Source: a virus
Length of the DNA stretch: 48,756 nt
Strand: one strand, 5' to 3'
IMG/VR virus record: IMGVR_UViG_3300030104_007599
Coordinates: 1 to 48,756 of that record
Both the position numbers and the translations under genes were made by a program. The first letter of the stretch is position 1, and every line of letters starts with the position of its first letter. The notes beneath the pieces are model-generated. The model saw nothing but the letters and a program-made list of their open reading frames with translations, had not been told where the DNA came from and ran no database searches. Shown in pieces: positions 1 through 48,254 of the stretch.

Positions 1-228
1 AAAGATTATTATGATAGATTTACAGTTACTAATCCTAATCTTGAAGAAGCATCAGATACTGATGTAGGTGGAAGTGCTAAACCACCAATTGGACTTGATA
101 TTGATGATGCGCATTCTGGAGATGCTGCACTTGATGATGAAGTAAACAAAATGGGATATAACGAATCCAAAGGTTTTGATTTTAAAAAAATGGTTAAGGA
201 AGCCTTAACCCCTAAAAACCTAAGATAA
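1..228 (+). CDS. Partial CDS (3' end), unknown acidic phage protein
   Basis: The frame is open from the first base of the window to TAA at 226-228, giving 75 residues; the start lies upstream. The visible part is rich in Asp and Gly and ends with a basic amphipathic stretch (KKMVKEALTPKNLR). I do not recognise the family. The stop overlaps the next start as TAATG, so the two are probably translated from one mRNA. It could be the tail of a virion or scaffold protein, but nothing here proves that. Confidence 0.7.
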   Translation, partial: KDYYDRFTVTNPNLEEASDTDVGGSAKPPIGLDIDDAHSGDAALDDEVNKMGYNESKGFDFKKMVKEALTPKNLR

Positions 229-296
229 TGAAACCTTGTACATGCCCAAAATGCCCATGTGGTACATCTTGCGACTGTGATTGTTGCGGATGTTAA
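228..296 (+). CDS. 22-residue cysteine-rich mini-protein (metallothionein-like pattern)
   Basis: ATG at 228 overlaps the upstream stop (TAATG). The peptide has 22 residues, of which 9 are Cys at positions 4, 6, 9, 11, 15, 17, 19, 20 and 22, giving four C-x-C pairs and one CC. Such spacing is typical of metal-thiolate clusters in metallothioneins. There is no signal peptide or membrane segment. Function is inferred from composition only: metal binding or a redox or structural knot. The coupled start and the extreme Cys density argue against a chance frame, but its size makes it uncertain. Confidence 0.5.
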   Translation: MKPCTCPKCPCGTSCDCDCCGC

Positions 297-314
297 TTTT
301 CTAGATTTTTCCAA

Positions 315-322
315 TATTTATA
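315..322 (+). promoter_or_regulatory. TATTTATA motif, candidate late promoter element
   Basis: TATTTATA lies 14 nt before the ATG at 337. It is one of ten copies found just upstream of genes in this window. Confidence 0.4.
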
Positions 323-336
323 ATAAACAAATCAAT

Positions 337-495
337 ATGAAATTGATTAAGTCAATATACAACCGTTTTCTTAAATTGTTCATGGGTGAATCTAAAACTG
401 AGGACAAAACTAAGAAAACAATTACTCCTCAAGAGATCACTCCTGAAGTTGCACCTGCAAAAAAGCGCAGGGGCAGGCCCAAAAAGACAACCTAA
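337..495 (+). CDS. Small AT-hook protein
   Basis: 52 residues from ATG 337. A longer reading from an in-frame start at 259 is possible, but it would run through the TATTTATA element and lacks an initiation context. The N-terminal half is an amphipathic basic helix (KLIKSIYNRFLKLF). The C-terminus is KKRRGRPKKTT, a canonical AT-hook (RGRP core) that binds the minor groove of AT-rich DNA. A role in DNA binding or genome compaction is inferred. RGRP-like motifs recur in two other proteins of this window (genes at 4586 and 10506). Confidence 0.75.
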   Translation: MKLIKSIYNRFLKLFMGESKTEDKTKKTITPQEITPEVAPAKKRRGRPKKTT

Positions 496-519
496 AAACC
501 CATTTTATCTATTAAAGAT

Positions 520-603
520 AGGGGTTGCTATGGAATAAATACCATTATAGGAACTTTGGAAAGCCTTAGGAGATTAAAGCTCTCAACTAATACCCCTGTT
601 TTT
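520..603 (+). other. Possible structured RNA or terminator between genes
   Basis: In the 121-nt gap between 495 and 617, AGGGGT (520-525) can pair with ACCCCT (592-597), which is followed by GTTTTT. Inside, ATGG/CCAT and GAG/CTC can form short stems. This looks like a branched hairpin with a closing stem and a U-run. It is not a tRNA: there is no T-loop and no CCA-type end. The folding was done by eye only. Confidence 0.25.
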
Positions 604-616
604 AATAGAATAACAA

Positions 617-994
617 ATGGAACTGTTAAAATTAACATGGTGGATGGAGGATCCAATTGACTTTGAGTATAAGCAATATATTCTTTTAGATTACCTACAA
701 AAAATAGAGAGACATTTTTATAATAAGGATTTTTCTCCATATTTACTTCATACTGAAAAACTGTATGAGGAAATGGCTATAAGCTTAGAATATATAGAGG
801 CTTTTGAAAAATCTATTACAAAATCTGAATTAGCTTTTACAAAACATGGGTTAGGATGGGTAGAAGAAAAACCCCCAAGTATAAACGAAGTAGAAGAAAT
901 GAAATTGGTACTAAGATTCTCAGTCCCCAAAATCAAAGAAAAAGTTAAATTGGGAAAAGAACTTTGGAAAAACAGCCCTACAATTTTATGGTAA
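617..994 (+). CDS. Hypothetical protein, 125 aa
   Basis: ATG at 617 begins an open frame of 125 residues, rich in aromatic residues and Glu/Lys, predicted mostly helical (EKLYEEMAISLEYIEAFEKS). There is no signal peptide, membrane span or recognisable catalytic motif. It ends 4 nt before the -33 box of the next promoter and is probably the last gene of its unit. I do not recognise the family. Confidence 0.75.
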   Translation: MELLKLTWWMEDPIDFEYKQYILLDYLQKIERHFYNKDFSPYLLHTEKLYEEMAISLEYIEAFEKSITKSELAFTKHGLGWVEEKPPSINEVEEMKLVLRFSVPKIKEKVKLGKELWKNSPTILW

Positions 995-997
995 AAA

Positions 998-1029
998 TTT
1001 GTATTCCTAATATTCCTTTCGTATATTTA
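998..1029 (+). promoter_or_regulatory. Bacteroidota-type promoter for gene 1049
   Basis: TTTG at 998-1001, a spacer of 20, then TATATTTA at 1022-1029 preceded by TCG. This matches the Bacteroidota TTTG / TAnnTTTG architecture and 12 other copies in the window. Confidence 0.75.
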
Positions 1030-1048
1030 CACCAAAATTAAGGTAGTT

Positions 1049-1264
1049 ATGGACAATTGGAATGAAAATTTATCATTAGAAACAGAAAAATATCTATGTA
1101 AATTACATAGATTAAATGCTTATGATTTGCTTAAATTAGAAAAGCAAAAAGAAGTAGAGTTAGGTTTAGCTGATGCTAATGAAAATTATGATTTATCATT
1201 TGACATTGAAAGTGATTTAAGTTGGATTCGTATTGTTTTATTTACAAGAGGGAAGTTGAATTAA
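1049..1264 (+). CDS. Hypothetical acidic protein, 71 aa
   Basis: First gene behind the promoter at 998-1029, with its ATG 19 nt after the TATATTTA box. It is acidic and helical, with no known domain (core LNAYDLLKLEKQKEVELGLA). The stop overlaps the next start as TAATG. Position behind an early-type promoter suggests a small host-takeover protein, which is inference only. Confidence 0.75.
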   Translation: MDNWNENLSLETEKYLCKLHRLNAYDLLKLEKQKEVELGLADANENYDLSFDIESDLSWIRIVLFTRGKLN

Positions 1265-1587
1265 TGGAAGAAAAACTAAAAAAAGATTACTTGGATAATT
1301 TTATAAAAGAAGATTTTGATTTTGATATGAATACCCCTGAGGGAAATGATAAAGTAAAAGAAATAATTCTAGAAGCTTTAGATAAAATGTTTTATGATAA
1401 AGACATAACAAGAAAAAAATTAGTAAACTTAATTCAACATAGATTAGATACAGCTTATAGTGATAAAAGTAAAACATACAAGGATATAAAAGATACTGAA
1501 CCAAAAACCCACATAGTAAACCAAATAAATAAAGCCTCAGACCAATTAAAAGTAGGGGGGAAAATAAGTAGATTTGATTTAAAATAA
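1264..1587 (+). CDS. Hypothetical charged helical protein, 107 aa
   Basis: ATG 1264 is chosen over an in-frame start at 1222, which would overlap the upstream gene by 43 nt; ATG 1264 gives the TAATG coupling common in this genome. The protein is highly charged (Lys, Asp, Glu), probably all helical, with a basic C-terminus (GGKISRFDLK). No domain is recognised. It is the second gene of the unit starting at 1049. Confidence 0.75.
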   Translation: MEEKLKKDYLDNFIKEDFDFDMNTPEGNDKVKEIILEALDKMFYDKDITRKKLVNLIQHRLDTAYSDKSKTYKDIKDTEPKTHIVNQINKASDQLKVGGKISRFDLK

Positions 1588-1592
1588 AAGTT

Positions 1593-1760
1593 ATGAAAAA
1601 ATATAAATTAGAATTAGTTAATTACGATTTAAATGATAGACCTGTAAGTGGGGTTTCTAGAATAGTAGAAAAAATGTCATTTAAAAAACTTAGAAAATTT
1701 CAAAATGACTACCCAGGTAGGGTAGATTTAATTAGAAAGTTAAACATCAAAGAAATATAG
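1593..1760 (+). CDS. Hypothetical small basic protein, 55 aa
   Basis: ATG 1593 sits in the context AAAAGTTATG and the frame ends with TAG at 1758-1760, two bases before the next ATG. It has 55 residues, is basic, begins MKKYKLELVNYDLNDR and contains a Lys/Arg-rich helix (FKKLRKF). It exactly fills the gap between its neighbours, which supports it as real. Function unknown. Confidence 0.7.
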   Translation: MKKYKLELVNYDLNDRPVSGVSRIVEKMSFKKLRKFQNDYPGRVDLIRKLNIKEI

Positions 1761-1762
1761 TT

Positions 1763-2344
1763 ATGGCAAATAATTTAAAAAGTTGGATCAAAGTTAAAGC
1801 TAATGAGGATACTTTAAAATATGTTGATTCTTTAGTTACTAAAGCTGAGGAAAGAAATGAAAACGATCCTTATGGTATAACAGCATTTGCAAAAACATTT
1901 TATAAAGATGTTGATTGTGGAGATGGTGGGGGTGTAATGTATGATTGGGCACTTGATAGTATAGGTGCTAAATGGACTTATTTAGAAGAAGTTGAAGATG
2001 AAGGAGAATTTTCCACTACATCAGCTTGGTATCCTCCAAAACAATTTTTTATTCATTTATATAAGCTATGTGCTGAATTAGATGAAAATGTAGAAATTGA
2101 AGTAAAATATGAAGATGAATCATATGATCCAATAGGTGCTATGGTTGTGAAAAAAGATAAAGATGGTATTCCTTGTATATGGGAAGAAGAGGATGATGTA
2201 GAAAATCCAACTGATGATATGGATTGGGATGATGAAGGTTATGATGAAGCACAACAAGAGTTTTATGATGAAGTTTATGAAACTAAACAAGAACTTTTAA
2301 AAGAATGTCACTCATTAGTACTTACTGATGGTGAACCAATTTAA
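1763..2344 (+). CDS. Api92-like / YubB ferredoxin-fold phage protein
   Basis: 193 residues. The layout resembles Api92-like proteins of phages and plasmids: an N-terminal strand (NLKSWIKVKANEDTLKYVDSL), a central GAKW motif (residues about 69-72), an aromatic S-A-W-x-P-P segment, then an alternating beta/alpha region (ENVEIEVKYEDESYDPIG). The C-terminal third is very acidic (DDMDWDDEGYDE). In the family the fold is ferredoxin-like and the role is unknown; acidic DNA mimicry is possible but speculative. The assignment rests on remembered family patterns. Confidence 0.55.
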   Translation: MANNLKSWIKVKANEDTLKYVDSLVTKAEERNENDPYGITAFAKTFYKDVDCGDGGGVMYDWALDSIGAKWTYLEEVEDEGEFSTTSAWYPPKQFFIHLYKLCAELDENVEIEVKYEDESYDPIGAMVVKKDKDGIPCIWEEEDDVENPTDDMDWDDEGYDEAQQEFYDEVYETKQELLKECHSLVLTDGEPI

Positions 2345-2358
2345 TAATAAATAAAGCT

Positions 2359-2559
2359 ATGGCAAAATTAAGAAAAATGGTTACTTACACTGATTACAGA
2401 TGGGAGATAACCGAGGATTTAACCCCAGAACAAATTAAAAAATGGAAATCTGAAGATGAAGATCTTCAAGAAGAGGTATTAGATGAAGTTGAATTTGAAT
2501 TATCACATGACAAAGTTTTAGAAGATCATGATTGGCCTGAGTTAATAGAAGATGAATAA
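2359..2559 (+). CDS. Hypothetical very acidic protein, 66 aa
   Basis: ATG 2359 in the context ATAAAGCTATGG. It has 66 residues with about a third Asp/Glu and clusters such as SEDEDLQEEVLDEVEFE, little hydrophobic core and no known domain. It follows the Api92-like gene in what looks like the same transcript. Small acidic phage proteins of this kind often bind host nucleic-acid enzymes, but there is no direct evidence here. Confidence 0.7.
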   Translation: MAKLRKMVTYTDYRWEITEDLTPEQIKKWKSEDEDLQEEVLDEVEFELSHDKVLEDHDWPELIEDE

Positions 2560-2594
2560 TCTAATATTTATTCTAGTATTAAACTATAACCAAA

Positions 2595-2921
2595 ATGTTA
2601 AGAAAAAAATATAAAAAATGTGGAGATGAAGTAGCAAAATCAGTACTAAATGCTGGTGCTAAAACTTGTTGTTTAAAGATAGAATTAAAAGCTACTTCTA
2701 AAATTGAAGGGTATTTCATTTATGAAGTATGTTACTTAGATGAAGGAGACTTAAAACAAGTTACTATAATAGCTCGAAATATCATGGATATAGTAGACAA
2801 AATAGAACCTTATATCAACAAAGGAATCCCAGAACAAACAGTTGGTTTTGATCTAGGTTTGAATGAAGATGTAGTACTTTCAAGAATGCAATCAAAAACA
2901 TATAAACCCTCCCAAAATTAA
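2595..2921 (+). CDS. Hypothetical protein, 108 aa
   Basis: 108 residues. Basic start (MLRKKYKKCGDEVAKS), then alternating strands and helices (KIEGYFIYEVCYLDEGDLKQ), suggesting a small alpha/beta fold. There are Cys at 9, 25, 26 and 46 but no obvious metal-site spacing. A TATTTATT word, one mismatch from the recurrent TATTTATA motif, lies at 2566-2573. Not recognised. Confidence 0.7.
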   Translation: MLRKKYKKCGDEVAKSVLNAGAKTCCLKIELKATSKIEGYFIYEVCYLDEGDLKQVTIIARNIMDIVDKIEPYINKGIPEQTVGFDLGLNEDVVLSRMQSKTYKPSQN

Positions 2922-2924
2922 AAA

Positions 2925-2932
2925 TATTTATA
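2925..2932 (+). promoter_or_regulatory. TATTTATA motif, candidate late promoter element
   Basis: TATTTATA lies 14 nt before the ATG at 2947, upstream of the membrane protein and T9SS metalloprotease genes. Confidence 0.4.
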
Positions 2933-2946
2933 ATAAATAATTAATT

Positions 2947-3306
2947 ATGACACCTGAAGTAGAAGAAAGACTATTAAAAGTTTACCCCCCTAGGGCTAAA
3001 AAAATTAGAAGAAAATTAGTTAATTTATATAGACCCATTTTACATGATAAATCCACATCAATATTTAATCAAGATTTAATGGCATATATCATGTTTAGTT
3101 TATTTTTTATAAGCTTAATTTTAGAATTAAAAGATGTAAACCATTCTTTTTTTCCTTTTATAGGAGGGTGGATCGTCATCCCATTAACTTGGATTTATTT
3201 TAAATTCAACCCCCAAACCTGGGATGAAATGTATGAATATGAAAAAATAGCATTTAGAAAAATTTGGAGACTTCCCACAAAGTGGAACCCAAAGAAAACT
3301 AAATGA
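2947..3306 (+). CDS. Two-helix membrane protein, 119 aa
   Basis: A basic cytoplasmic N-terminus (PPRAKKIRRKLVNLYR) is followed by two hydrophobic segments at about residues 40-58 and 67-83, then a basic aromatic tail (FRKIWRLPTKWNPKKTK). The stop overlaps the start of the M43 protease gene as ATGA, so the two are translationally coupled. It may be a membrane helper of the exported protease, or unrelated. No family recognised. Confidence 0.75.
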   Translation: MTPEVEERLLKVYPPRAKKIRRKLVNLYRPILHDKSTSIFNQDLMAYIMFSLFFISLILELKDVNHSFFPFIGGWIVIPLTWIYFKFNPQTWDEMYEYEKIAFRKIWRLPTKWNPKKTK

Positions 3307-4517
3307 GAAATTTATTAATATTAATACTTTTTATATCTAATTTCCTCTTAGGTCAAAACCCTTGTGGAACTGATGGGTATAACAAATTTTATATTGATTC
3401 CAACCCTAAATCTTATAAGAATATAGAGAATCAACTCCAAGATTATTTAAAAATCACCCCAAAATCCACTACCAACATTACTATCCCAGTGGTATTCCAT
3501 GTGGTTTGGATAAATAACATCCAAAACCTTCATGATAGTGTAATCTACCATCAATTGGAAGTATTAAATTCTATTTTTAATTCTCAAAACCCTGATACAG
3601 TTAATTTAACGGATACATTAAAAAGGTGGGTAGGGGATTTTAATATTAACTTTGAAATAGCACATAGGGACCCAAATGGTTTCCCTACTAGGGGCATAAC
3701 TAGAAAAAAAACTTTCCACCCCCATTTTTCTTACTGGAATAACCCCGTTAAAAAACTTCCCTATGGGGTTTTACCTTGGCCTACGGATAGGTATTTGAAC
3801 ATTTGGATTTGTGATTTAAATGATGGACTTAATGGGTATGCCCAATTTCCAGGTGGACCTGAAGAAACTGATGGGATTGTTGTGGATTGGCAAACTGTTG
3901 GGAATCAAATTTATCCTTGGGTATCGTTTGAAAATTATGAATGGGCAAAAGGTAAAGTATTGGTACATGAAATAGGCCATTGGTTAAACCTTTATCATCC
4001 TTGGGGAAATGATGGTTCATGTACTGAAGATTATATTCCAGAAACATCATTTCAAAATAGTCCAATTTTTCCCCATAATAACTGTCCTGATACTATGTTT
4101 AGTTCTTGTTCTGATAGTGGTAGAATTTTTATTAAACATTATATGGATTATTCAGGGAGTTCTTGTATGTGTACCTTTACTAAAAACCAAGTATTGAGGG
4201 GATTAGCATCATTAAATACCTATAGAATTAAGATGGTGGAAAACTATTTACCAAAACCTATCATTAATGGGTTTGAAAATACTAAAATTTACCCCACATA
4301 TGTTCAAGATATAATATATATTGAATTTCCCATCTATGAGGGGATTATAGAAATTTTAATATATAACCTCCAAGGGAGATTGATGAAGCAATTAATTACC
4401 CAAAATAACCATTTTGAAACCCTCAACCTTTCAGATTTAGTTAATGGTATTTATGTTGTGAATTTACTCCATAATGGAAAATCTGTGGTAAACAAAAAAA
4501 TCATAATCAATAATTAA
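3303..4517 (+). CDS. Secreted M43 (pappalysin/cytophagalysin-like) metalloprotease with T9SS sorting domain
   Basis: 404 residues in three parts. (1) A signal peptide, residues 1-17, with a Bacteroidota-style cleavage before Gln (LLG|QNPCG). (2) A metzincin catalytic domain with the zinc motif HEIGHWLNLYH (H222, E223, H226, H232) and a downstream Met-turn region HYMDYSGSSCM around M281, as in MEROPS family M43. (3) A C-terminal domain, residues about 323-404, with the IYNLQGR...LSDLVNGIYVV pattern of T9SS type A sorting domains. All catalytic residues are present. In such proteins the sorting domain directs export across the outer membrane by the host type IX system. The ATGA overlap couples it to the membrane gene upstream. 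Probably acquired from a host; substrate unknown. Confidence 0.92.
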   Translation: MRNLLILILFISNFLLGQNPCGTDGYNKFYIDSNPKSYKNIENQLQDYLKITPKSTTNITIPVVFHVVWINNIQNLHDSVIYHQLEVLNSIFNSQNPDTVNLTDTLKRWVGDFNINFEIAHRDPNGFPTRGITRKKTFHPHFSYWNNPVKKLPYGVLPWPTDRYLNIWICDLNDGLNGYAQFPGGPEETDGIVVDWQTVGNQIYPWVSFENYEWAKGKVLVHEIGHWLNLYHPWGNDGSCTEDYIPETSFQNSPIFPHNNCPDTMFSSCSDSGRIFIKHYMDYSGSSCMCTFTKNQVLRGLASLNTYRIKMVENYLPKPIINGFENTKIYPTYVQDIIYIEFPIYEGIIEILIYNLQGRLMKQLITQNNHFETLNLSDLVNGIYVVNLLHNGKSVVNKKIIINN

Positions 4518-4541
4518 TCTAACAAACCCATTAAAAATTAA

Positions 4542-4573
4542 TTTGACTCCCTCATTTTTTTATCGTATATTAC
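4542..4573 (+). promoter_or_regulatory. Bacteroidota-type promoter for gene 4586
   Basis: TTTGACTCCC from 4542, a spacer of 20 and a TATATTAC box at 4566-4573 preceded by TCG. The box is 12 nt before the ATG. Confidence 0.65.
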
Positions 4574-4585
4574 CAACAAAAACAT

Positions 4586-4909
4586 ATGTCAAAAAGAAAA
4601 GGAAGACCAAGTGGGAGTACAAGCAGATACTGCTTAATAAAGGATGAATTAATATTACCTTATGAGATTCATGTAGATGAATCAACCCACACTTATTTAA
4701 AAGTAGTAGCAGAAACACAAAAAACCGTTGGATATTTTGCTTCAATGCCCCATTTATTAAGAAGTATACTTAGAGAAAAGCATGTACCACAGGGTAAAAA
4801 TGGTGAAATATATAATTTAAAAGAATACGTTGAAGCCATGAATAAATTAACCAATGCAATGGCTAAAATTTTAGTCCCCCCACATCATAGAATTGAAGCA
4901 GTTAGGTAA
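4586..4909 (+). CDS. Hypothetical protein with N-terminal AT-hook-like motif, 107 aa
   Basis: 107 residues, beginning SKRKGRPSGS, which resembles an AT-hook (GRP core with flanking Lys/Arg). The rest is an unrecognised alpha/beta domain (ILPYEIHVDESTHTYLKVVA) ending in a basic tail. It is the first gene behind the promoter at 4542-4573. DNA binding is inferred from the hook alone. Confidence 0.7.
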   Translation: MSKRKGRPSGSTSRYCLIKDELILPYEIHVDESTHTYLKVVAETQKTVGYFASMPHLLRSILREKHVPQGKNGEIYNLKEYVEAMNKLTNAMAKILVPPHHRIEAVR

Positions 4910-5081
4910 ATTTACATTAATCTGGATCTCTCAGAATTTAGCTATTCCTTTTTGGATGGTAGGCCATATTCATTTATCTACTAATGTTTATGAAGATATA
5001 CATGAGATAATTGCTTCTGTAGGAATGAATCTGATTGTACTAATTGGATTCATTCTAGATTATAAAGAAAGTAAAAAGTAA
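4893..5081 (+). CDS. Small membrane protein, TTG start, 62 aa
   Basis: The frame opens with TTG at 4893, overlapping the previous gene by 17 nt; no ATG is available until residue 22. Two hydrophobic segments (about residues 8-25 and 38-56) and a charged tail (DYKESKK) suggest a two-span membrane protein. The start is uncertain: a shorter product from ATG at residue 22 is possible. Confidence 0.5.
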   Translation: MKQLGKFTLIWISQNLAIPFWMVGHIHLSTNVYEDIHEIIASVGMNLIVLIGFILDYKESKK

Positions 5082-5102
5082 TTGTCTTTCCTGCGCAGGA
5101 TA

Positions 5103-5134
5103 TTTGGCTCCCCAGGAGAGGGTTCGTATATTTA
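5103..5134 (+). promoter_or_regulatory. Bacteroidota-type promoter for the DUF932 gene
   Basis: TTTGGCTCCC from 5103, then GGGTTCG, then TATATTTA at 5127-5134 (spacer 20). It is the type example of the repeated promoter and is followed by an AT-only-rich leader ending AAAAGTTATG. Confidence 0.85.
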
Positions 5135-5172
5135 TGTCATAAATAAATAAGTTAAATTAATAAATAAAAGTT

Positions 5173-5979
5173 ATGTTAGATTTCGAAAAAAGTGAATTTT
5201 TAAGTAAAAAAGAGTTAAAAGAGGTATGTCCTGTAATCTTTGCGGGTAAGGCTTCAGATGAAGTATCAAAACACTATACACATATTCCTACTAGTAAAGT
5301 TATAGATGATATGGAATTATTAGGTTGGAAAGTTGTTGATGCTAAAGCTGTTAAAGCTAGAAAAAAAACAACTCAAGGTTATCAAAAGCATTTAGTAGTA
5401 TTTAGAAATCCTGATGTTGTTATTAATGGTAAAAATGATGATACAGTTTTTCCACAAGTATTACTTACAAATAGCCATGATGGTAAAAATGCATTTACAT
5501 TTACTGCGGGATTATTTAGAATGATTTGTGAAAATGGATTAGTTGTTTCAACTTCAACATTTGAAGACGTTAAAATGAGACATATGGGTTATTCATTTGA
5601 GGAATTACAAGTTAAAATTAAAGATATGGTTGAAAAATTACCATTAACGGTTGAATCAATGAATAAAATGCAAGCAACTGAGCTTGGTCAAAAGCAAGCA
5701 GTTAATTTTGCTAAAAAAGCACTTACAACTCGATTCCCAGAGGATGAATTAAAAAGAATTAAAATTGATATTAAAGATATTTTAACTCCAGTTCGTAAAG
5801 AAGATGCGGGTAATGATCTTTGGAGTATATTTAATGTAGTTCAAGAAAAAATCATTGAAGGTGATTTTGAGTATATGGCTGGCGGTAAATTAAGAAAAGC
5901 TAGACAAATTAAAAACTTCAAACAAGATCAAAAGATTAATAAAGATTTATTTGATTTAGCTTTAGAGTTTGCAAATTAA
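5173..5979 (+). CDS. DUF932 family phage/plasmid protein
   Basis: 268 residues. The central signature is typical of DUF932 (TIGR03299-like): VLLTNSHDGKNAFTF, then GLFRMICENGLVV, then VKMRHMGYSFEEL (residues about 96-150). The N-terminal part carries the family-like GWKVVDAKAVKAR and KHLVVFRN elements. The biochemical role of the family is not settled; it is common in phages and plasmids and close to DNA-processing genes. Here it stands alone between a strong promoter and a clear intrinsic terminator, so it is a monocistronic, probably highly expressed gene. Confidence 0.85.
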   Translation: MLDFEKSEFLSKKELKEVCPVIFAGKASDEVSKHYTHIPTSKVIDDMELLGWKVVDAKAVKARKKTTQGYQKHLVVFRNPDVVINGKNDDTVFPQVLLTNSHDGKNAFTFTAGLFRMICENGLVVSTSTFEDVKMRHMGYSFEELQVKIKDMVEKLPLTVESMNKMQATELGQKQAVNFAKKALTTRFPEDELKRIKIDIKDILTPVRKEDAGNDLWSIFNVVQEKIIEGDFEYMAGGKLRKARQIKNFKQDQKINKDLFDLALEFAN

Positions 5980-5999
5980 TAAAAAATTTAATTAACAAT

Positions 6000-6024
6000 G
6001 CCCCCTTTTCTAGGGGGCTTTTTT
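6000..6024 (+). terminator. Intrinsic terminator after the DUF932 gene
   Basis: A perfect 7-bp GC-rich stem GCCCCCT / AGGGGGC (6000-6006 with 6012-6018), loop of 5, followed directly by six T (6019-6024). It lies 21 nt after the stop of the DUF932 gene. Confidence 0.93.
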
Positions 6025-6027
6025 ATT

Positions 6028-6237
6028 ATGACTAAAAAAGAAAAAAGACAGTTTTTATTAGAAAATAATTGGGGAGAACACTATCGTTATAATTGTTGGT
6101 TTGATCATTCAAAAGATAATCTACATGTTGATGAAAATAATCGAATTGCAGGATTCCAACCAGAGGAAGATGGGATTAAATTAGAACAAGCTTTTAAAAT
6201 ATGTATAATAAATTTATCTAAAGAAACAAAATTATGA
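6028..6237 (+). CDS. Hypothetical protein, 69 aa
   Basis: ATG 6028 is chosen. An in-frame ATG at 5998 would place the first ten codons inside the terminator hairpin and is almost certainly not used. 69 residues, aromatic-rich (NNWGEHYRYNCWFDHSKDN), no membrane span, no recognised domain. It overlaps the next gene as ATGA. Transcription may come from read-through of the terminator, since no promoter box is visible between them. Confidence 0.7.
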   Translation: MTKKEKRQFLLENNWGEHYRYNCWFDHSKDNLHVDENNRIAGFQPEEDGIKLEQAFKICIINLSKETKL

Positions 6238-6425
6238 ATCAAGAAATGAATAATGAACCTGTAACATTAGACCCTACACATTTAGCAGCATTGTTAGATG
6301 TAGCTTATAAGGCTGGATTTAATGATGGAATTAAACAAATAGGAGAAACTTTATTAAAACTTGAACCCAAAGTTGAGGATTTCCAACAACAAATGGTGAA
6401 CGCTGGTGAAACCTCAAATGATTAA
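6234..6425 (+). CDS. Hypothetical acidic protein, 63 aa
   Basis: Coupled to the gene before it by an ATGA overlap. 63 residues with a central helix (HLAALLDVAYKAGFNDGIKQ) and an acidic, Gln-rich C-terminus. It may form a small helical bundle. Not recognised. Confidence 0.7.
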   Translation: MNQEMNNEPVTLDPTHLAALLDVAYKAGFNDGIKQIGETLLKLEPKVEDFQQQMVNAGETSND

Positions 6426-6434
6426 TCCATTTTT

Positions 6435-6953
6435 ATGTCTTATAAGAAATGGATACATAAGTATCAATTCCTTAAAGAGGATTTATCTGATGTTGAAAAA
6501 TCACTAGAAGAATATACTTTGAATTTTTCAGAGAGCTTTGTTTTTAATGATAAGGAAGAAAATAACCTACCCCTAGAAGTAGATCACCTTCCTGAGCGTG
6601 TACCTGATAATAAATGTAAACCCATCTTTAAAAGACTCTCAAAAACCCTACACCCTGATAAGGGAGGGAATGGGGAGGATTTCACCCAATTATCAGAAAA
6701 CTATAGAAATCAAGATATTGTGGGTTTATACCTCATGGCGGAAAAATATAAAATTGATATAGAAGATTTAATAACTAAGGAAATCATTCCATTATTTGAA
6801 TCTTCTTGTAAACAATTTGAAGATATAATTGAAAAGAAAAAAAGTACAGTAGCCTGGGGGTGGGGGAATATTTCTTCCCCAGAAGAAAGGGAAATGGCAA
6901 TAAAGTATATCGAAAAAGAACATAATTTAGTTTATAAAAAAGATAAAAAGTAA
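6435..6953 (+). CDS. J-domain-like (DnaJ) phage protein
   Basis: 172 residues. After an acidic N-terminal coiled segment, residues about 60-100 read FKRLSKTLHPDKGG with the hallmark HPD tripeptide at H73-P74-D75, as in the J-domains of DnaJ co-chaperones and viral T antigens, followed by a helix (NYRNQDIVGLYLMAEKY). The C-terminal part is a charged coiled coil. The inferred role is recruiting or hijacking host DnaK for assembly or replication. The J-domain is short, so the assignment rests mainly on HPDKGG and its position between two helices. Confidence 0.7.
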   Translation: MSYKKWIHKYQFLKEDLSDVEKSLEEYTLNFSESFVFNDKEENNLPLEVDHLPERVPDNKCKPIFKRLSKTLHPDKGGNGEDFTQLSENYRNQDIVGLYLMAEKYKIDIEDLITKEIIPLFESSCKQFEDIIEKKKSTVAWGWGNISSPEEREMAIKYIEKEHNLVYKKDKK

Positions 6954-6964
6954 TTGGGCAAATG

Positions 6965-6996
6965 CTTGGATACCCGAGGAAGGGTTCGTATATTTA
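6965..6996 (+). promoter_or_regulatory. Bacteroidota-type promoter for gene 7024
   Basis: CTTGGATACCC from 6965, then GGGTTCG and TATATTTA at 6989-6996; spacer 20. Confidence 0.8.
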
Positions 6997-7023
6997 CGGC
7001 GTAAATAAAAAATAATAAAGGTT

Positions 7024-7404
7024 ATGAAAAGTAGAAATGAATTATTAGAACAAGTAGGTAGAGAAATTATTGAAGAAGGTATTAATCTTGAGCGTGAGTG
7101 GAATTTTGGTGATGTAAATGGTAAAAGATGTGTTATTGAAGAAAATTTTGCTAAAGCAAGATCAGGTAGATATGATGGTGTAGATGGATATTATTTCAGG
7201 AGAGCGGATAGCGATGAATTTGATGGTGATGAAATTCAAACTATTGTAGATATATTAAATGCACATGGTTTTGAGGTTATTCATTTTGAGCCATATGAAA
7301 TAGAGTGGGATGGAGATAGAGCTTGGAGTGCAAGTGTTTCATTTGTTAAAAAATCTGAAGATTTAGCTGTTGGTAGTTTAAAAAGGCTAATAGGGTGGGA
7401 TTAA
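7024..7404 (+). CDS. Hypothetical protein, 126 aa
   Basis: First gene of a long run (7024 to 9600) of short genes in the same direction. 126 residues, acidic and aromatic, with repeated Asp/Gly turns (GRYDGVDGYYFRRADSDEFD) and a probable alpha/beta fold. Start chosen from the AAAGGTTATG context. Not recognised; likely early gene by promoter type. Confidence 0.75.
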   Translation: MKSRNELLEQVGREIIEEGINLEREWNFGDVNGKRCVIEENFAKARSGRYDGVDGYYFRRADSDEFDGDEIQTIVDILNAHGFEVIHFEPYEIEWDGDRAWSASVSFVKKSEDLAVGSLKRLIGWD

Positions 7405-7417
7405 AAAAATAAAGGTT

Positions 7418-7564
7418 ATGAATTGGATACTAGAAAAATTAGAAAAAGATATCAACCAAAATGTTTATAATTTAAAAAAACAAGGTTTAGGTAAATTAGC
7501 TTTAATTAAAAAATTAAATGAAGTTAAAGAAGATGTTAAAGCATTACAAAGGTTAAAAAAATAA
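7418..7564 (+). CDS. Hypothetical coiled-coil mini-protein, 48 aa
   Basis: ATG 7418 in the context AATAAAGGTTATG. 48 residues, almost entirely Lys/Leu/Glu helix (LEKLEKDINQNVYNLKKQ), basic, suited to a coiled coil or nucleic-acid binding. Directly followed by the next gene with the same initiation context. Unknown function. Confidence 0.65.
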   Translation: MNWILEKLEKDINQNVYNLKKQGLGKLALIKKLNEVKEDVKALQRLKK

Positions 7565-7569
7565 AAGTT

Positions 7570-7734
7570 ATGTATAAAGTTAGATTAAGAAAACCATACG
7601 GAAAAATTTATAATGAAATAGCAACATTTGAACAAAAATGGTTTGCTGAAGAGTTTGTTGATGCAATTAAAAATAAATTGTATGATGTGGTTGAGATTCA
7701 TAAGAATGAAAAAGTAATTTATAAATCAAAATAA
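7570..7734 (+). CDS. Hypothetical small basic protein, 54 aa
   Basis: ATG 7570 in the context AAAAGTTATG, ending two bases before the next start. 54 residues; pattern strand-helix-strand (MYKVRLRKPYGKIYNEIATF, then a Phe-rich helix, then EKVIYKSK). It has a similar size and pattern to the gene at 10244. Unknown function. Confidence 0.65.
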   Translation: MYKVRLRKPYGKIYNEIATFEQKWFAEEFVDAIKNKLYDVVEIHKNEKVIYKSK

Positions 7735-7736
7735 AA

Positions 7737-8294
7737 ATGGGTTATATAGTATTAAGTAAAAGACAAGTTGAAGGTAGTTTAAATATTAACCTATGTAAAG
7801 ATAAAACAAGTGCTGATTCATGTAGGAAACAATTATTTAAACAAAATTATGATGTGGTTATCTTGGATGAAGATGATTATAATAAATTAGGAGAGAAAGT
7901 ATTTAGACATAGGATTTCTAATATTAATAGAAACAATGGGGGAGATAATACAAATTCAGATAAACATAACGAGGAACATACGGGTGAAGATTTAGCACCT
8001 CAATGTTACCATGAAGATGAAGACGGTGATGAATATTATTTGAGTTCAAATGGTAATCGTTATTACTTGTTTAAAAAAATGGTTACACTTAAGGGTGATA
8101 GAGAGCAAACGATTTATACGTTTGGTAAAAAAGAATGGAGCAAAACAAATGATTTAACGTTATTAAGTTTTTTAGATATACCTTATGATAAGTGTGTTAT
8201 TGAAAATAGTAGTGGTTATCCATTTTTAAAAACTGATGTTCATAATGACCATGATAAGCATTTAAGAGATAAAGACAAAAATGAAATAATATAA
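7737..8294 (+). CDS. Hypothetical protein, 185 aa
   Basis: 185 residues. The N-terminal 60 residues form a probable alpha/beta unit (YIVLSKRQVEGSLN ... YDVVILDEDDYNKL), then an Asn/Asp/His-rich linker (NRNNGGDNTNSDKHNEEHTG), then a second domain with aromatic strands (EYYLSSNGNRYYLFKKMV). Two-domain layout with a flexible hinge. No family recognised. Confidence 0.75.
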   Translation: MGYIVLSKRQVEGSLNINLCKDKTSADSCRKQLFKQNYDVVILDEDDYNKLGEKVFRHRISNINRNNGGDNTNSDKHNEEHTGEDLAPQCYHEDEDGDEYYLSSNGNRYYLFKKMVTLKGDREQTIYTFGKKEWSKTNDLTLLSFLDIPYDKCVIENSSGYPFLKTDVHNDHDKHLRDKDKNEII

Positions 8295-11419: not shown

Positions 11420-11450
11420 TTTGAAATCCCCCCTTTAGTTGGTATATTTC
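11420..11450 (+). promoter_or_regulatory. Bacteroidota-type promoter for the T9SS adhesin gene
   Basis: TTTG at 11420-11423, a spacer of 19, then TATATTTC at 11443-11450. It lacks the TTTGG(A/C)T(A/C)CC and TCG elements of the common phage promoters. Confidence 0.5.
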
Positions 11451-11507
11451 CCCATATTTATTAGCACACGTTGTTCTTTATTTACCGTTATATTAAAATT
11501 AAATATT

Positions 11508-14500
11508 ATGAAAATATACAAAATCTTATATGCATTTGTAACAATATTAGTTACTTTTCTATTTACTTCTACCCTTAACGCCCAATGTACTCATACTTTT
11601 ACAGGATATGATTCATATGGAGATGGGTGGAATGGCGCATCTTGTACCATTACTGTTAATGGGAACCCTGTTGGGGTTGTAGATCTACTCTCAGGCTCTT
11701 CTCAATCCTTACAGTTTCAAGCTAGTAATGGGGATTTAATCAAATTAGATTGGATTTCTGGATCTTGGGATAGTGAAATTTCTTGGGATTGTACAGATGG
11801 GGGTGGTAATACTATTGCTATGGGAGTGTATGGAACAACCACGGTTGGTAATGGTGCATGCCCAGCACCAACTCCTTGTGCAAGTTTAAATTATAATCAA
11901 GATTTTGAAATGGGAACAACTCTATTAAGTGCTACAACTGGGGCTGGGTCAATTGTTGCTGTAGATGGCACATCTGCTAATTCTAGTACTTATGGATTAC
12001 ATCTACAAGGTAATACATCTTCAGGGTGGAGTTCAGCTTACTCAACAGGCCCAGATGCTTTTAATAATTCACCCTCTCATATTGCTTCTGTTAGTAGAGA
12101 AATATGTGCCCCTTCATTACCTACAGTTACTTTAACATTTAACAAAAAACAAACTTACACATATAATGTAAATTATTCATGGTTTAGGGTTACGGTTAAT
12201 GGCACCCCTATTGCAGATATAAATGGAAATACTTATTTTAATGGTTCTAATAATGTTTGGGAACAGATGGAATATAATTTATCAGCATATACAGGAACAG
12301 CCTTTACTATCGCCTTTGAGACATGTAATAAGTATTATACTGGGTATACAACTACTGGTATGGGTGGTGATGCATCTTTTATAGATGATATTATTATAAC
12401 CCAAACTGCAGGCTTATCCCCACCTACAACCCCAGGAGTTATTTCAGGAAATAGTTACCCAAATTCAGGTGAAACAGTTACATATACTATATCTTCAGTG
12501 GTGGGTGCAGATTCATATACTTGGTCAGCTCCTACTGGTTGGTTAATAGTTTCAGGTCAAGGAACAACTTCAGTAACAGTAATAGCAAATGATAATGCAG
12601 GTTCTATTTCAGTAACCGCAACTAATACTGCTGGTACTTCTGCTGCTCAAACTTTAACAGTTACATCAGCTGTTTTAGTAACATCGTACCCATATGAAAC
12701 AGCATTTGAAAATGAATCACAACATTCAACTACTGCTTCTGCCTCAGGATTTTCATTTGCTGTAAATGGTTGGAGAAATGTAACAGGAGATGATGGAGAT
12801 TGGAGATCAGATGCAGGTGGAACAGGTTCTACGGGAACAGGGCCAGGAACTTCATCTTCAGGACAATCAGATCATAATCCAGGAACTTCATCAGGAAAAT
12901 ATTTATACATAGAAGCTTCTACACCTAATTATCCTTCTAAAGTATTTTATTTATGGTCCCCACCTTATAATTTAACTTCTTTAAATTCTCCAACTTTAAC
13001 GTTTTGGTTTAGTTTACAAAGTGCTTCTGGTGCTAGTTTAGCATTACAATCAAGTACTGATAATGGAACAACTTGGTCTAATAATATTCCATTTATGTGT
13101 ACTTCAGTTTGTTCTAATTCTGCTATTAATTCAAATATGGGATCAGAATGGAGACAAGGATTTATTGACTTATCTTCTTATTCAAGTCAATCTAGTATAA
13201 TGTTTAGATTTGTTGGTACTACTGGAACAAATTGGGATAGTGATGTTTGTTTAGATGACATCAAATTAGTAGATGCCCAAACAACATCTGTAGATGTAGG
13301 TGAAAATATTACATTAGGATCTAATGCATATGATAATGCTTACAGTTTAAATTTAAATGGAAGTGCAGCACAAACCATATCCCCTGCAGGTTATGATTTA
13401 TCAAACATAATAATTAACAATGCTAATGGAGTTACTATTAGTGGTGGTGATTTAAAAATTGATGATAATTTAACTTTAACCAACGGTATATTAAACACAG
13501 GGGGAAATAAAGTAATTATATCTAATACTAATGCTAATAGTATATCAGGTGGTAGTACAACCTCATACATTAATGGTAATTTAAGAAGATATATTTCTAC
13601 TAATACGGACACCTATGAATTTCCTATTGGTAATGGAACAGGTACAAGTAATTATCATAAAGTAGATTTGATTAATGGATCATTAGTAGGAGTTAGTTAT
13701 ATAGATGTTTCGGTAGGAGATATGCCTGTTGGTAGTTATGTTGATTTAAATGCTTATCAAATGACAAGTCCTTTAGTTGAAGTATTTGACAAACAATGGC
13801 AATTAACTCCCAATTCTCAACCCACTGGAGGAACATATGGGGTTAATTTATACTTAAATGGTGTTTCAGGTGGATTTATGCAAGATGATAATTTTACAAT
13901 TATTAAAAGAGATGATAATTCTACAACTTGGGCTGATTGGGATACTCATGAATCTACAACTTCTATTCCTAACGCAGGGCAACCTGGAAGAACTTTGACT
14001 GATGGATATGGTCAAAAATCAGGATTTACTTCGTTTAGTTTATTTGGTTTTGGTGGAACTGGGGGAAGTGCATTACCAATAGACTTAGTATCATTTACAG
14101 GAGAGATGATTGGAAATACTGTTGAATTAGAATGGGTAGTTGCTTCACAAATTAATAATGAATATTTTAAAATTGAAAAAAGTTTAAATTGTGAGCAATG
14201 GGAAGAAGTAGCCAGAATACCAGGAGCAGGAAATAGTAATACACAAATGGATTATAAAATTTATGATGAAAAACCTTATGATGGAGTTTCATATTATAGA
14301 TTATCACAAACAGATTATGATGGTAAAAGTGAAACATTCAACCCTATTAGTATAATTTATGATAAACCAATTATATTAAGTATCAATCCTAATCCCGTAA
14401 AAGAAGTACTACATTTATATTTAGATGAAAAATTAAGAGGTACTACCCATTTAACTATTTTTAATACAAAGGGACAAAGAGTATATAAAAAATCTTTCAT

Positions 14501-14612
14501 AGGAGATTATGAAATAATTAATTTAAATGTTGAAGGATTTAAAAAGGGATATTACCTATTAGAAATAGATCATTACCAAAGAAAAGGTAATCTAAAATTT
14601 TTAAAGGAATAA
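11508..14612 (+). CDS. Large secreted multidomain adhesin-like protein with T9SS sorting domain
   Basis: 1034 residues from ATG 11508. An in-frame TTG at 11439 would bury the signal peptide and overlap the promoter, so it is rejected. Order: signal peptide 1-25 (TFLFTSTLNA|QC); a DSYGDGWNG domain with Cys (about 27-95) common in Bacteroidota exported proteins; a beta-rich segment; an Ig/PKD-like repeat (about 300-390); a MAM-like domain (about 395-590); beta repeats; a fibronectin-like segment (LEWVVASQINNEYFKIEKS); and a T9SS type A sorting domain at the end (SINPNPVKEVLHLYL, IFNTKGQRVY). Domain choice and order are those of flavobacterial surface adhesins, suggesting transfer from a host. 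It would be exported by the host T9SS and displayed on the cell or released. Confidence 0.88.
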   Translation: MKIYKILYAFVTILVTFLFTSTLNAQCTHTFTGYDSYGDGWNGASCTITVNGNPVGVVDLLSGSSQSLQFQASNGDLIKLDWISGSWDSEISWDCTDGGGNTIAMGVYGTTTVGNGACPAPTPCASLNYNQDFEMGTTLLSATTGAGSIVAVDGTSANSSTYGLHLQGNTSSGWSSAYSTGPDAFNNSPSHIASVSREICAPSLPTVTLTFNKKQTYTYNVNYSWFRVTVNGTPIADINGNTYFNGSNNVWEQMEYNLSAYTGTAFTIAFETCNKYYTGYTTTGMGGDASFIDDIIITQTAGLSPPTTPGVISGNSYPNSGETVTYTISSVVGADSYTWSAPTGWLIVSGQGTTSVTVIANDNAGSISVTATNTAGTSAAQTLTVTSAVLVTSYPYETAFENESQHSTTASASGFSFAVNGWRNVTGDDGDWRSDAGGTGSTGTGPGTSSSGQSDHNPGTSSGKYLYIEASTPNYPSKVFYLWSPPYNLTSLNSPTLTFWFSLQSASGASLALQSSTDNGTTWSNNIPFMCTSVCSNSAINSNMGSEWRQGFIDLSSYSSQSSIMFRFVGTTGTNWDSDVCLDDIKLVDAQTTSVDVGENITLGSNAYDNAYSLNLNGSAAQTISPAGYDLSNIIINNANGVTISGGDLKIDDNLTLTNGILNTGGNKVIISNTNANSISGGSTTSYINGNLRRYISTNTDTYEFPIGNGTGTSNYHKVDLINGSLVGVSYIDVSVGDMPVGSYVDLNAYQMTSPLVEVFDKQWQLTPNSQPTGGTYGVNLYLNGVSGGFMQDDNFTIIKRDDNSTTWADWDTHESTTSIPNAGQPGRTLTDGYGQKSGFTSFSLFGFGGTGGSALPIDLVSFTGEMIGNTVELEWVVASQINNEYFKIEKSLNCEQWEEVARIPGAGNSNTQMDYKIYDEKPYDGVSYYRLSQTDYDGKSETFNPISIIYDKPIILSINPNPVKEVLHLYLDEKLRGTTHLTIFNTKGQRVYKKSFIGDYEIINLNVEGFKKGYYLLEIDHYQRKGNLKFLKE

Positions 14613-16652: not shown

Positions 16653-16653
16653 G

Positions 16654-30166: not shown

Positions 30167-30573
30167 TGGCATTTGGAGCACAAAAAATATACCCAATTGA
30201 CTTTAACAAAAGTGCAGCAGTAGGAGTAGATATTCCTTTTAATGCTCCTGGTGTGTTTAGACTTAACTATACAACAGCAGCAGCTACTAAGAATAATTTA
30301 ATTAATTATTTTTTAACCAATCCAGGAGAAAGACCCTTAAACCCATCTTTTGGGGGAGGGTTAAGAGCTTTTATCTTTGAACAAATAACTAGGGGGAATT
30401 TAGATTTCCTTAAAGAAAAAATATCCGAAGATTTAGTTAATTTCTTTCCTAATGTTGATGTTGGGGAATTAGAAATTTTCCAAAAAGAAGATAATAATGA
30501 AATAACAGTATCTCTAACTTATAGTGTTTTAAACACAAATATTAATGATACTTTACAAATAGACTTTACATAA
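30166..30573 (+). CDS. 25: gp25-like baseplate wedge protein
   Basis: 135 residues, full length for the GPW/gp25 family. Seen: NNLINYFLTNPGERPLNPSFG, the family N-x-x-x-x-x-L-x-T-x-x-G-E-R-x-x-x-P-x-x-G motif, and a C-terminal strand pair (NNEITVSLTYSVLNTN). gp25 joins the wedge to the sheath initiator region of contractile baseplates. TAATG overlaps on both sides couple it to its neighbours, as in the 25-6 gene pair of T4. Confidence 0.95.
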   Translation: MAFGAQKIYPIDFNKSAAVGVDIPFNAPGVFRLNYTTAAATKNNLINYFLTNPGERPLNPSFGGGLRAFIFEQITRGNLDFLKEKISEDLVNFFPNVDVGELEIFQKEDNNEITVSLTYSVLNTNINDTLQIDFT

Positions 30574-32432
30574 TGGCAACACCCGTAAATAGAGATATAA
30601 AATATTTAAATAGGGACTTTTCAAATATAAGGGAAAGTTTAATTGAGTTTTCCAAAACATATTTCCCTAACACTTACAATGACTTCACTCCTTCCTCTCC
30701 GGGTATGATGTTTATGGAACAAGCTGCTTATGTAGGGGATGTTATGTCATTTTATTTAGATAACCAATTAGAAGAAACTTTTACTCAATTTGCTCAACAA
30801 ACTAATAATCTATATGAATTAGCTTATATGTTTGGTTATAAACCAAAAGCAACAGGTGCATCACAAGTAATGGTAGATTTATACCAACAGTTACCCTCTA
30901 AATTAGTAGGAGCTAGTTATGTTCCTGATTATGATTATGCATTAACAATAGGAGAGAATAGTACTATACCATCCTCTTTATCAATTGGAGTTGATTTTAT
31001 AATGGAAGATAAATGTGATTTTTCATTTTCAAGTTCCCTAGACCCAACAGAAGTTTCTATTTATAGTTCTGCAGGAGGTATTCCTCAATTTTATTTAATA
31101 AAAAAACAAAGAAAAGCTATTTCAGCTACTATTAATACCAAAGACATAACTTTTTCTTCATTTAAACCTTTCCCAACAATTGATGTAGTAGGAAATGATA
31201 TAATAGGAATATTAGATATAATTGATAGTGAGGGTAATACATGGTATGAAGTAGATTATTTAGGTCAAGAAATGATATTTGATAATATTAGAAATACTAA
31301 CATTCATGATCCTAATGTAACCGAAGAAAATGAAATACCATTTTTACTTAAATTAAAAAAAGTACAAAGACGTTTTGCTACTCGTTTATTATCCCAAAAT
31401 ATTTTACAAATTCAATTTGGGGCTGGTAACCCAAATGATGTAGATGAGACAGTTACACCCAATCCAAACAATGTAGGTATAGGTTTACCATTTGAAAAAA
31501 ACAAACTAACAACTGCATATTCTCCAACAAATTTTCTATTTACCAATACTTACGGCATTGCACCTTCAGATATAACATTGAGGGTAAGATATCTAACAGG
31601 GGGAGGAGTTAATTCAAATGTTCCTGCTGGGGATTTAACAGATTTAAATAAGGCTAGTACTAAATTTAATGTTTCTACTCTTAATGCTACCACAGCAGAT
31701 TATATATATAATTCTCTATCTTGTAATAATGAAAAAGCAGCTGATGGGGGTAAAGCAGGAGATACAATAAATGAAATTAGACAAAATACTCTAATGCAAA
31801 TTGCTACTCAACAGAGAACAGTCACATTAGATGATTATATGGTTAGAGCCTTAAGCATGCCCGGAGAATATGGTATAGTAACTAAAGCTTATATCGAAAA
31901 ACCCAAACTAACAGATGAACAAGTTTCTACAATAGAATCTTTAAATATGTATGTTTTATCCCAAAATTTATTTGGTCAACTATCACAAGCATCTACAACA
32001 TTAAAGAAAAATTTAAGAACCTATTTAAATCAATATAGGATGATAGGTGATAATATTGAAATAAAAGATGCTTATGTTATTAATATAGGTATAGATTTTG
32101 AAATAATAGTATTACCCAATTTCATTAATAGTCAAGTAATATTAGCTTGTATAGATTCATTACAAGAATATTTTGATGTTAAAAACTGGCAAATGAATCA
32201 ACCTATTTTAATAAGAGATTTATATGTTAGATTAGATAGAATAGAAGGGGTTCAAACCGTTAAAAATATTATGTTTTCAAATAAAGCAGGCACTATGTCA
32301 GGATACTCAGAATATTCCTATGATATAGATGGAGCAACACAAAATCAAGTAATATATCCATCATTAGATCCAAGCATTTTTGAAATCAAATACCCACAAC
32401 AAGATATTAAAGGTAGAGTAGTACCATTATAA
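30573..32432 (+). CDS. 6: gp6-like baseplate wedge protein (baseplate J family)
   Basis: 619 residues. N-terminus RDIKYLNRDFSNIRESLIEF and TPSSPGMMFMEQAAYVGDVM, the typical baseplate J-like opening; the middle has RTVTLDDYMVRALSMPGEYG and the C-terminal part ILIRDLYVRLDRIEGVQTV, both conserved in gp6/J proteins. gp6 forms the inner iris of the baseplate that opens on contraction. It follows gp25 directly by a TAATG overlap. Confidence 0.92.
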   Translation: MATPVNRDIKYLNRDFSNIRESLIEFSKTYFPNTYNDFTPSSPGMMFMEQAAYVGDVMSFYLDNQLEETFTQFAQQTNNLYELAYMFGYKPKATGASQVMVDLYQQLPSKLVGASYVPDYDYALTIGENSTIPSSLSIGVDFIMEDKCDFSFSSSLDPTEVSIYSSAGGIPQFYLIKKQRKAISATINTKDITFSSFKPFPTIDVVGNDIIGILDIIDSEGNTWYEVDYLGQEMIFDNIRNTNIHDPNVTEENEIPFLLKLKKVQRRFATRLLSQNILQIQFGAGNPNDVDETVTPNPNNVGIGLPFEKNKLTTAYSPTNFLFTNTYGIAPSDITLRVRYLTGGGVNSNVPAGDLTDLNKASTKFNVSTLNATTADYIYNSLSCNNEKAADGGKAGDTINEIRQNTLMQIATQQRTVTLDDYMVRALSMPGEYGIVTKAYIEKPKLTDEQVSTIESLNMYVLSQNLFGQLSQASTTLKKNLRTYLNQYRMIGDNIEIKDAYVINIGIDFEIIVLPNFINSQVILACIDSLQEYFDVKNWQMNQPILIRDLYVRLDRIEGVQTVKNIMFSNKAGTMSGYSEYSYDIDGATQNQVIYPSLDPSIFEIKYPQQDIKGRVVPL

Positions 32433-47327: not shown

Positions 47328-48254
47328 ATGGTAAATGAACTATTAGTTAACCTAGTTAACAAGGTTTTAGGAACAAGTAAAAGGACAGCAAGAGGTAATC
47401 AATCTTATCACTGTCCCTTTTGCAATCACCATAAACCAAAACTAGAAATTAACTTTACAGAAAATAAAAAAGGACATAATCCTTGGCATTGTTGGGTTTG
47501 TGGTAAAAAAGGTAAAACTATAAAAGGTTTATTTAAATTACTAAAAACACCATCTGATAAATTTATAGAATTAAGTAAATTAGTTAAAACAGGTAGTCAA
47601 GTAGAAGAGGTTATAGTAGAGAATAAAGTTGTATTACCCAAAGAATTTAAACCAATATTAAGCACCCCAGGCTTTACAGCTAGAAGAGCATATAATTATC
47701 TTAAAAATAGAAATATTTCAGATGATGATATGATAAAATATAATTTAGGTTATTGTGATTTTGGAAGATATAAAAATATGGTTATTATACCATCCTATGA
47801 CCAAAATGGTGAATTAAATTATTTTACAGGCAGGTCATTTGAAAAAGACCCATTTATAAAATATAGAAACCCAGAATGTTCAAGAGACATAATACCATTT
47901 GAATTATTCGTAAACTGGGGTTCACCTTTAGTACTATGTGAAGGCCCATTTGATGCAATGGCAATAAAACGAAATGCTATACCTTTATTAGGTAAAAACA
48001 TGCAATCTAGCTTATTAAAAAGAATAGTTGAATCAACGGTTAAAAAGATTTATTTAGCATTAGATACTGATGCAATGAAACAAGCATTAAAACATTGTGA
48101 ATATTTATTAAACCAAGGTAAAGAAGTTTATCTTGTAGAATTAGACGGAAAAGATCCAAGTGAAATGGGATTCTCTCAATTTACTAAACTAATTCAAAAC
48201 ACTGAACCAATAGATGAATTTGGTCTAATGGAAAAGAAAATCTCATTAATATGA
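47328..48254 (+). CDS. 61: T4 gp61-like DNA primase (CHC2 zinc finger and TOPRIM)
   Basis: 308 residues. Zinc ribbon: HCPFC (C29, C32) and WHCWVC (C55, C58). TOPRIM: LVLCEGPFDAM with E205 and YLALDTDA with D246 and D248, the acidic metal-binding residues. Primes lagging-strand synthesis with the phage helicase; T4 gp61 is of similar size. The stop overlaps the next gene start as ATGA, so it is co-translated with the nuclease. Confidence 0.9.
   Translation: MVNELLVNLVNKVLGTSKRTARGNQSYHCPFCNHHKPKLEINFTENKKGHNPWHCWVCGKKGKTIKGLFKLLKTPSDKFIELSKLVKTGSQVEEVIVENKVVLPKEFKPILSTPGFTARRAYNYLKNRNISDDDMIKYNLGYCDFGRYKNMVIIPSYDQNGELNYFTGRSFEKDPFIKYRNPECSRDIIPFELFVNWGSPLVLCEGPFDAMAIKRNAIPLLGKNMQSSLLKRIVESTVKKIYLALDTDAMKQALKHCEYLLNQGKEVYLVELDGKDPSEMGFSQFTKLIQNTEPIDEFGLMEKKISLI

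Follow-up and report, generated by a model that had tools for sequence, protein, structure and literature searches.

The protease gene and its parts

The stretch of viral DNA analyzed here, referred to as the window, comprises 48,756 nucleotides (positions 1 to 48,756 of IMG/VR record IMGVR_UViG_3300030104_007599, a linear fragment). On its forward strand, where the upstream gene, the second tagged gene, the baseplate gene, and the primase gene described below also lie, it carries at 3303..4517 an open reading frame of 404 amino acids, with an ATG start and without internal stops, predicted to encode an M43 metalloprotease ending in a type A sorting domain of the type IX secretion system (T9SS). 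The stop codon of a 119-amino-acid upstream phage gene (2947..3306) overlaps the protease ATG (ATGA), and a homologue of this upstream gene also precedes the protease in another viral locus (L123). A promoter scan returned sites no more numerous than those found in shuffled sequences.

The first 17 residues (3303..3353) probably form a signal peptide: the N-terminus, MRNLLILILFISNFLLGQ, was read by eye as a Sec signal peptide, with MRNLLILILFISNFLLG preceding QNPCG at the cleavage point, and a similar N-terminus is found in all 11 full-length viral enzymes. The following putative pro-segment (residues 18-56, 3354..3470) contains Cys21-Gly22, which aligns with the switch Cys23-Gly24 of mirolysin, the M43 protease of Tannerella forsythia for which the cysteine-switch mechanism has been described (PMC6949598); the aligned Cys is present in all of the viral and cellular homologues examined. 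The catalytic domain (residues 57-312, 3471..4238) was identified by profile, phmmer, and Foldseek comparisons. Pfam Peptidase_M43 (PF05572) matches residues 159-301 (E-value 4e-12; 46.7 bits against a curated cut-off of 23), and in a phmmer search of the PDB, where the solved M43 structures served as the reference set for the family, mirolysin (2.3e-49, residues 20-303) and ulilysin (1e-46) were matched over nearly the whole pro- and catalytic domain. The zinc ligands H222, H226, and H232 and the general base E223 of the motif HEIGHWLNLYH (3966..3998) align with those of mirolysin, in agreement with the M43-type active site proposed in a preliminary description of this locus. Likewise, Met281 and Tyr283 of the Met-turn YMDY (Y280-M281-D282-Y283, 4140..4151) correspond to mirolysin Met284 and its tyrosine switch, Tyr286. 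The cysteine pairs C240-C269 and C261-C288 align with the mirolysin disulfides C243-C271 and C262-C291 and are predicted to be bonded in the same way.

The sorting domain (CTD) occupies residues 329-404 (4287..4514). Por_Secre_tail (PF18962) matches residues 329-402 with 37 bits (cut-off of 27) and the NCBIfam model TIGR04183 scores 31.6 bits (cut-off of 23). An AlphaFold model built with six sequences was poor in the catalytic domain (mean pLDDT 54.5) and reached about 74-88 in the CTD; its use was limited to the CTD and the overall fold match. In Foldseek searches of the PDB, the top matches of the whole model were mirolysin and ulilysin, while the tail matched the mirolase CTD (8qb1) and the translocon-bound T9SS CTDs of NucA (8glk_D) and RemA (8gl6_D) with E-values of 1e-4 to 1e-3. 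Thus, both in sequence and in fold, the protease tail resembles true T9SS cargo tags. The combination of signal peptide, intact M43 domain, and T9SS type A sorting domain put forward in the preliminary description is therefore upheld, with Pfam, NCBIfam, and alignment in agreement and the signal peptide recognized by eye. Of the two results that would have contradicted it, a missing sorting-domain match and catalytic His/Glu residues out of register with M43 enzymes, neither was obtained, and the orthologues on 10 other viral contigs, together with the purifying selection described below, argue against a chance reading frame. As judged by sequence and fold comparison, the open reading frame is an intact M43 protease with a T9SS address, and this assignment is well supported.

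Phage context and a second tagged gene

The tailed-phage context is proven by a baseplate wedge protein (30573..32432; phrog_10646, 9.5e-16), and profile matches identify a phage DNA primase at 47328..48254 as well as further phage genes; with the baseplate and primase genes in the window, the protease sits in bona fide phage DNA. The baseplate protein, aligned over 99% of its length, has 45% identity with its counterpart in Flavobacterium phage immuto (Immutovirus), the best isolate match of the window, and relatives of the window protein are encoded on 429 viral stretches. Two short genes are common to the window and immuto besides the baseplate protein, and a megablast search with window positions 1-20000 gave no match. 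The window is derived from a tailed phage of Bacteroidota-type bacteria, the putative host group.

A second, co-linear contig, 3300037991_007400 (G001, 65.9 kb), carries the protease in the same slot between conserved genes. The two proteases are 68% identical overall, and the catalytic domain, with a dN/dS of about 0.14/0.77 (NG86; dS is saturated outside this domain), is under purifying selection. Conservation is lowest in the sorting domain (42% identity compared with 80% in the catalytic domain), and the CTDs of several viral orthologues score below the PF18962 cut-off. In G001, a 161-amino-acid signal-peptide protein (L104:1728-2213) overlaps the protease stop codon; no homologue was seen at that place in the window.

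The window contains a second T9SS-tagged gene, 11439..14612, with MAM and PKD_6 domains, a signal peptide starting from an ATG at about 11508, and a sorting domain at 14382-14579 (PF18962, 33.9 bits). In G001, the homologue of the ATPase gene 10506-11315 is followed immediately, in the same slot, by the gene for a MAM and P-domain protein in which a stretch preceding the C-terminus is homologous, and contigs G026/G028 carry a CUB protein whose C-terminal module is common to this locus. Across the locus (window 11439-14612; L108:1221-3935; L103:166-1731), the C-terminal regions are alike and the front domains differ (MAM/PKD, MAM/P-domain, and CUB). A conserved delivery end joined to a changing front suggests swappable cargo.

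PF18962 exceeded its cut-off in 12 of 46 related or similar records, including three huge phage genomes and gp15 of Flavobacterium phage immuto (L106:4692-5423; MW353176 12691-13422), which is annotated as a cohesin-domain protein and has a PF18962 E-value of 1e-10 and a signal-peptide-like N-terminus. The neighbors of gp15 include a lectin C-type protein.

Several other window genes deserve mention. A small protein with a zinc-protease-like HEYTH motif (9806-10183; weak DUF3920 match) has homologues in related phages, and 14996-15391 encodes a stand-alone LigD 3'-phosphoesterase domain (PF13298, 3e-12). A phage-conserved protein outside any Pfam family (21423-22121) has a lipobox-like N-terminus (LLTSC) and is possibly a surface lipoprotein, and a tail-region protein (45969-46604) is weakly similar (26% over 98 amino acids) to the CUB-type T9SS cargo of G028.

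A viral M43 clade and its S1' pocket

Scans of IMG/VR with growing alignments recovered 10 further full-length viral homologues and one partial homologue. The signal peptide, switch Cys, zinc motif, and CTD are kept in all 11 members of the full-length set, and five of the protease contigs also encode a T4-type major head protein (G039, 160.5 kb; G041, 158.4 kb; G440, 380 kb; G441, 137 kb; G443, 152 kb). The carriage of an intact, T9SS-addressed M43 protease by phages is thus broader than the single case initially noted. On G041, 0.96 kb containing a single open reading frame separates the protease gene from the major head protein gene upstream of it. In seven of the 11 proteases (L123, L124, L169, L170, L172, L173, and L174), the sorting domain is followed by a short extension (SPYG..., consensus SPYGxxL), which the window protease does not have; such an extension is unusual, as a T9SS tag normally stands at the very C-terminus.

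In a tree of the catalytic domain, the 11 viral enzymes form one clade with support of 100/100 and a stem of 0.84 changes per column. The cellular side of this tree consists of the best 30 hits from 395 Bacteroidia genomes, at about 35-44% identity, and a closer cellular sister is possible since the search covered this genome sample only. On this sequence comparison, the phage proteases branch deeply as a clade separate from the 30 best-matching cellular enzymes. Accordingly, the earlier expectation that a recent transfer from a host genome could be dated is not supported, the closest cellular homologues being only about 35-44% identical. Two scans of genome contigs, by a method that sees close relatives only, gave no match with the single query P0001 and only a 25% identical Tamlana protein with alignment A1. 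A phylum-wide search with L174 at E<=1e-64 was empty as well, a result that is given no weight here.

Further M43 genes on viral contigs (L125 and L176-L189) were weighed as candidate orthologues but excluded, since the ones included in the tree branch within the cellular enzymes and the majority differ in architecture. They appear to be separate acquisitions. Among them, L176, L177, and L183 encode proteins of ~850 amino acids without a signal peptide (M43 at about 8000-8800) that resemble virion or fiber proteins with a built-in protease. L178, L179, L182, L188, and L189 start almost directly at the Cys-Gly switch, also without a signal peptide; an alternative genetic code for L178/L179 was rejected, as a stop precedes the real ATG. 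L184-L187 combine a lipoprotein-like N-terminus with the lack of a sorting domain, and the L186/L187 contigs (465 and 246 kb) also match the major head protein model. An M43 match in MT837139, a 7.6-kb 'Bacteriophage sp.' entry, was set aside (33% identity over 34% of the query, unverified record).

The viral clade differs from its cellular counterparts in the S1' pocket. In mirolysin, Asp289 at the bottom of this pocket makes pappalysins specific for Arg/Lys in P1', and Arg21 of the pro-segment plugs the pocket via Asp289 (PMC6949598). At the aligned position, Asp occurs in 30 of 30 cellular Bacteroidota homologues; eight of the 11 viral clade members (the window enzyme and seven others) have Ser, Cys, or Ala there, and the three basal ones keep Asp. 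The window protease has Ser286 (4158..4160) and so lacks the conserved Asp of the Arg/Lys-specific pappalysins. Similarly, most of the cellular enzymes have a basic residue (R, H, or K) two positions ahead of the switch Cys, and the nine viral members that branch above the two basal ones (H in L174, I in L172) all lack it. The joint loss of the S1' Asp and of the pro-segment basic residue points to a changed cleavage preference, and the window enzyme and its seven relatives probably cut at sites other than the Arg/Lys sites of cellular pappalysins.

Proposed export, possible targets, and known systems

We propose, with a probability of roughly 0.6, that the phage encodes an M43 zymogen that leaves the cell via the host T9SS and most likely cuts host surface proteins, leading to receptor loss and progeny release. 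The gene would be translated during infection, and the signal peptide would take the protease through the inner membrane by the Sec route. By analogy with mirolysin, Cys21 would keep the zinc blocked until removal of the pro-segment. As the tag and its fold suggest, the CTD would then be recognized by the T9SS translocon, and the enzyme would either stay attached to the cell surface or be released from it. That a phage-only protease family occurs in large phages implies that a viral protease is probably exposed on the surface of infected cells or set free from them.

The most likely targets of such an exported enzyme would be host surface proteins, among them phage receptors and adhesins delivered by the T9SS. 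Phage exposure selects resistant Flavobacterium columnare mutants in gld/spr (T9SS) genes (PMC9233685), indicating that T9SS function matters for infection, and because Flavobacterium phages depend on a surface built by this system, we place receptor or adhesin cleavage first. Loss of receptors from the infected cell could result in superinfection exclusion, and progeny might avoid being trapped on debris and neighboring cells. Host-surface remodeling by the protease is therefore plausible, while its target is a guess, since extracellular matrix or competitor proteins fit equally well. In its fullest form, this reading describes a phage-specific exported pappalysin subfamily with a re-shaped S1' pocket that strips host surface adhesins or receptors via the T9SS, serves as a superinfection-exclusion or progeny-release device acting from outside, and belongs to a swappable set of tagged cargo; with all of these elements together, we put it forward only tentatively.

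The main rival to receptor or adhesin cleavage is matrix digestion, in which the exported protease would degrade extracellular material (capsule or biofilm proteins, or particulate protein in the water) and thereby free the phage or feed the infected cell, leaving receptors unaltered. Such a role is consistent with the cleavage of extracellular proteins such as fibronectin, fibrinogen, and complement by known pappalysins (PMC6949598), with the endoglucanase and GH39 hydrolase among the tagged cargo of Cryophage (PMC7468147), and with the MAM, PKD, CUB, and P domains found in the other tagged phage proteins. However, the missing S1' Asp suggests a specificity that has become narrower or different, not general digestion, and we consider this explanation rather unlikely. 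A location in or on the virion, where the protease would be packaged or would act on virion components while its sorting-like domain served only as an adhesion or Ig-like module, would be in keeping with the position of the G041 gene just behind the major head protein gene, the SPYG extension after the CTD in seven members, and the M43 domains in long viral proteins without a signal peptide (L176, L183). This is quite improbable. A virion part assembled in the cytoplasm would hardly need the signal peptide, pro-segment, and CTD that are conserved throughout the 11-member clade; the sequence and fold of the CTD match those of genuine T9SS cargo; and the window protease is surrounded by small genes, well away from the tail genes. 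Finally, M43 matches at 1e-25 abound in Bacteroidota genomes (321 of 395 sampled), but a recently picked-up bystander gene or an assembly artefact without a phage role is largely refuted, and hardly credible, given the shared slot in G001, the purifying selection, the deep phage-only clade, and the overlap with a phage gene.

If export by the host T9SS is correct, Bacteroidota phages make their hosts export viral enzymes, changing the surface or surroundings of the infected cell from outside. In F. columnare, phage resistance commonly arises through loss of T9SS/gliding genes, and if phages also need the T9SS for delivery of their own proteins, such resistance may have a second cause beside missing receptors. 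With a cultured relative carrying a tagged gene (immuto), the question of T9SS cargo is testable now.

Phage-encoded T9SS cargo as such has precedents, contrary to the initial impression that no well-described phage set of this kind existed. In Cryophage, the T9SS-tagged cargo consists of an endoglucanase, a GH39 protein, and a PA14 protein, and hijacking of the host system was proposed (Bellas et al. 2020, PMC7468147); in gut phages, sorting-domain proteins next to BACON open reading frames were reported in 2019 (PMC6949934). No report of a viral M43/pappalysin T9SS cargo was found among the open-access papers searched, an absence that is weak evidence. Taken together, the kind of cargo is known and the exported protease family appears to be a new form of it. 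As in Cryophage, the genes described here belong to Bacteroidetes phages and end in a T9SS type A sorting domain, and the cargo differs between close relatives, as it does at the second cargo locus of the window. Unlike the Cryophage cargo, that described here comprises a metalloprotease family found in large T4-type phages, together with MAM/PKD, MAM/P-domain, and CUB proteins. Flavobacterium phage immuto, related to the window through the baseplate protein, has the PF18962 tag on gp15, but there the cargo is cohesin-like and not a protease.

Among cellular enzymes, mirolysin is secreted, comes from a bacterium of the same phylum, and leaves the cell by the T9SS. It has in common with the window protease (structures 6r7u, 6r7v, and 6r7w) the Cys-Gly switch pro-segment, the HExxHxxxxxH motif, the Met-turn, the tyrosine switch, and the four disulfide cysteines. 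In contrast, the window gene is viral, its tag is of type A, its product is about 35-37% identical to mirolysin in the structure-based match, and Asp289 and pro-segment Arg21 are replaced by Ser286 and Asn19. The cellular T9SS-tagged M43 proteases of Bacteroidota have the same domain order, and several of those sampled are similarly compact (about 415-440 amino acids), but all of the sampled ones keep the S1' Asp and fall outside the viral clade.
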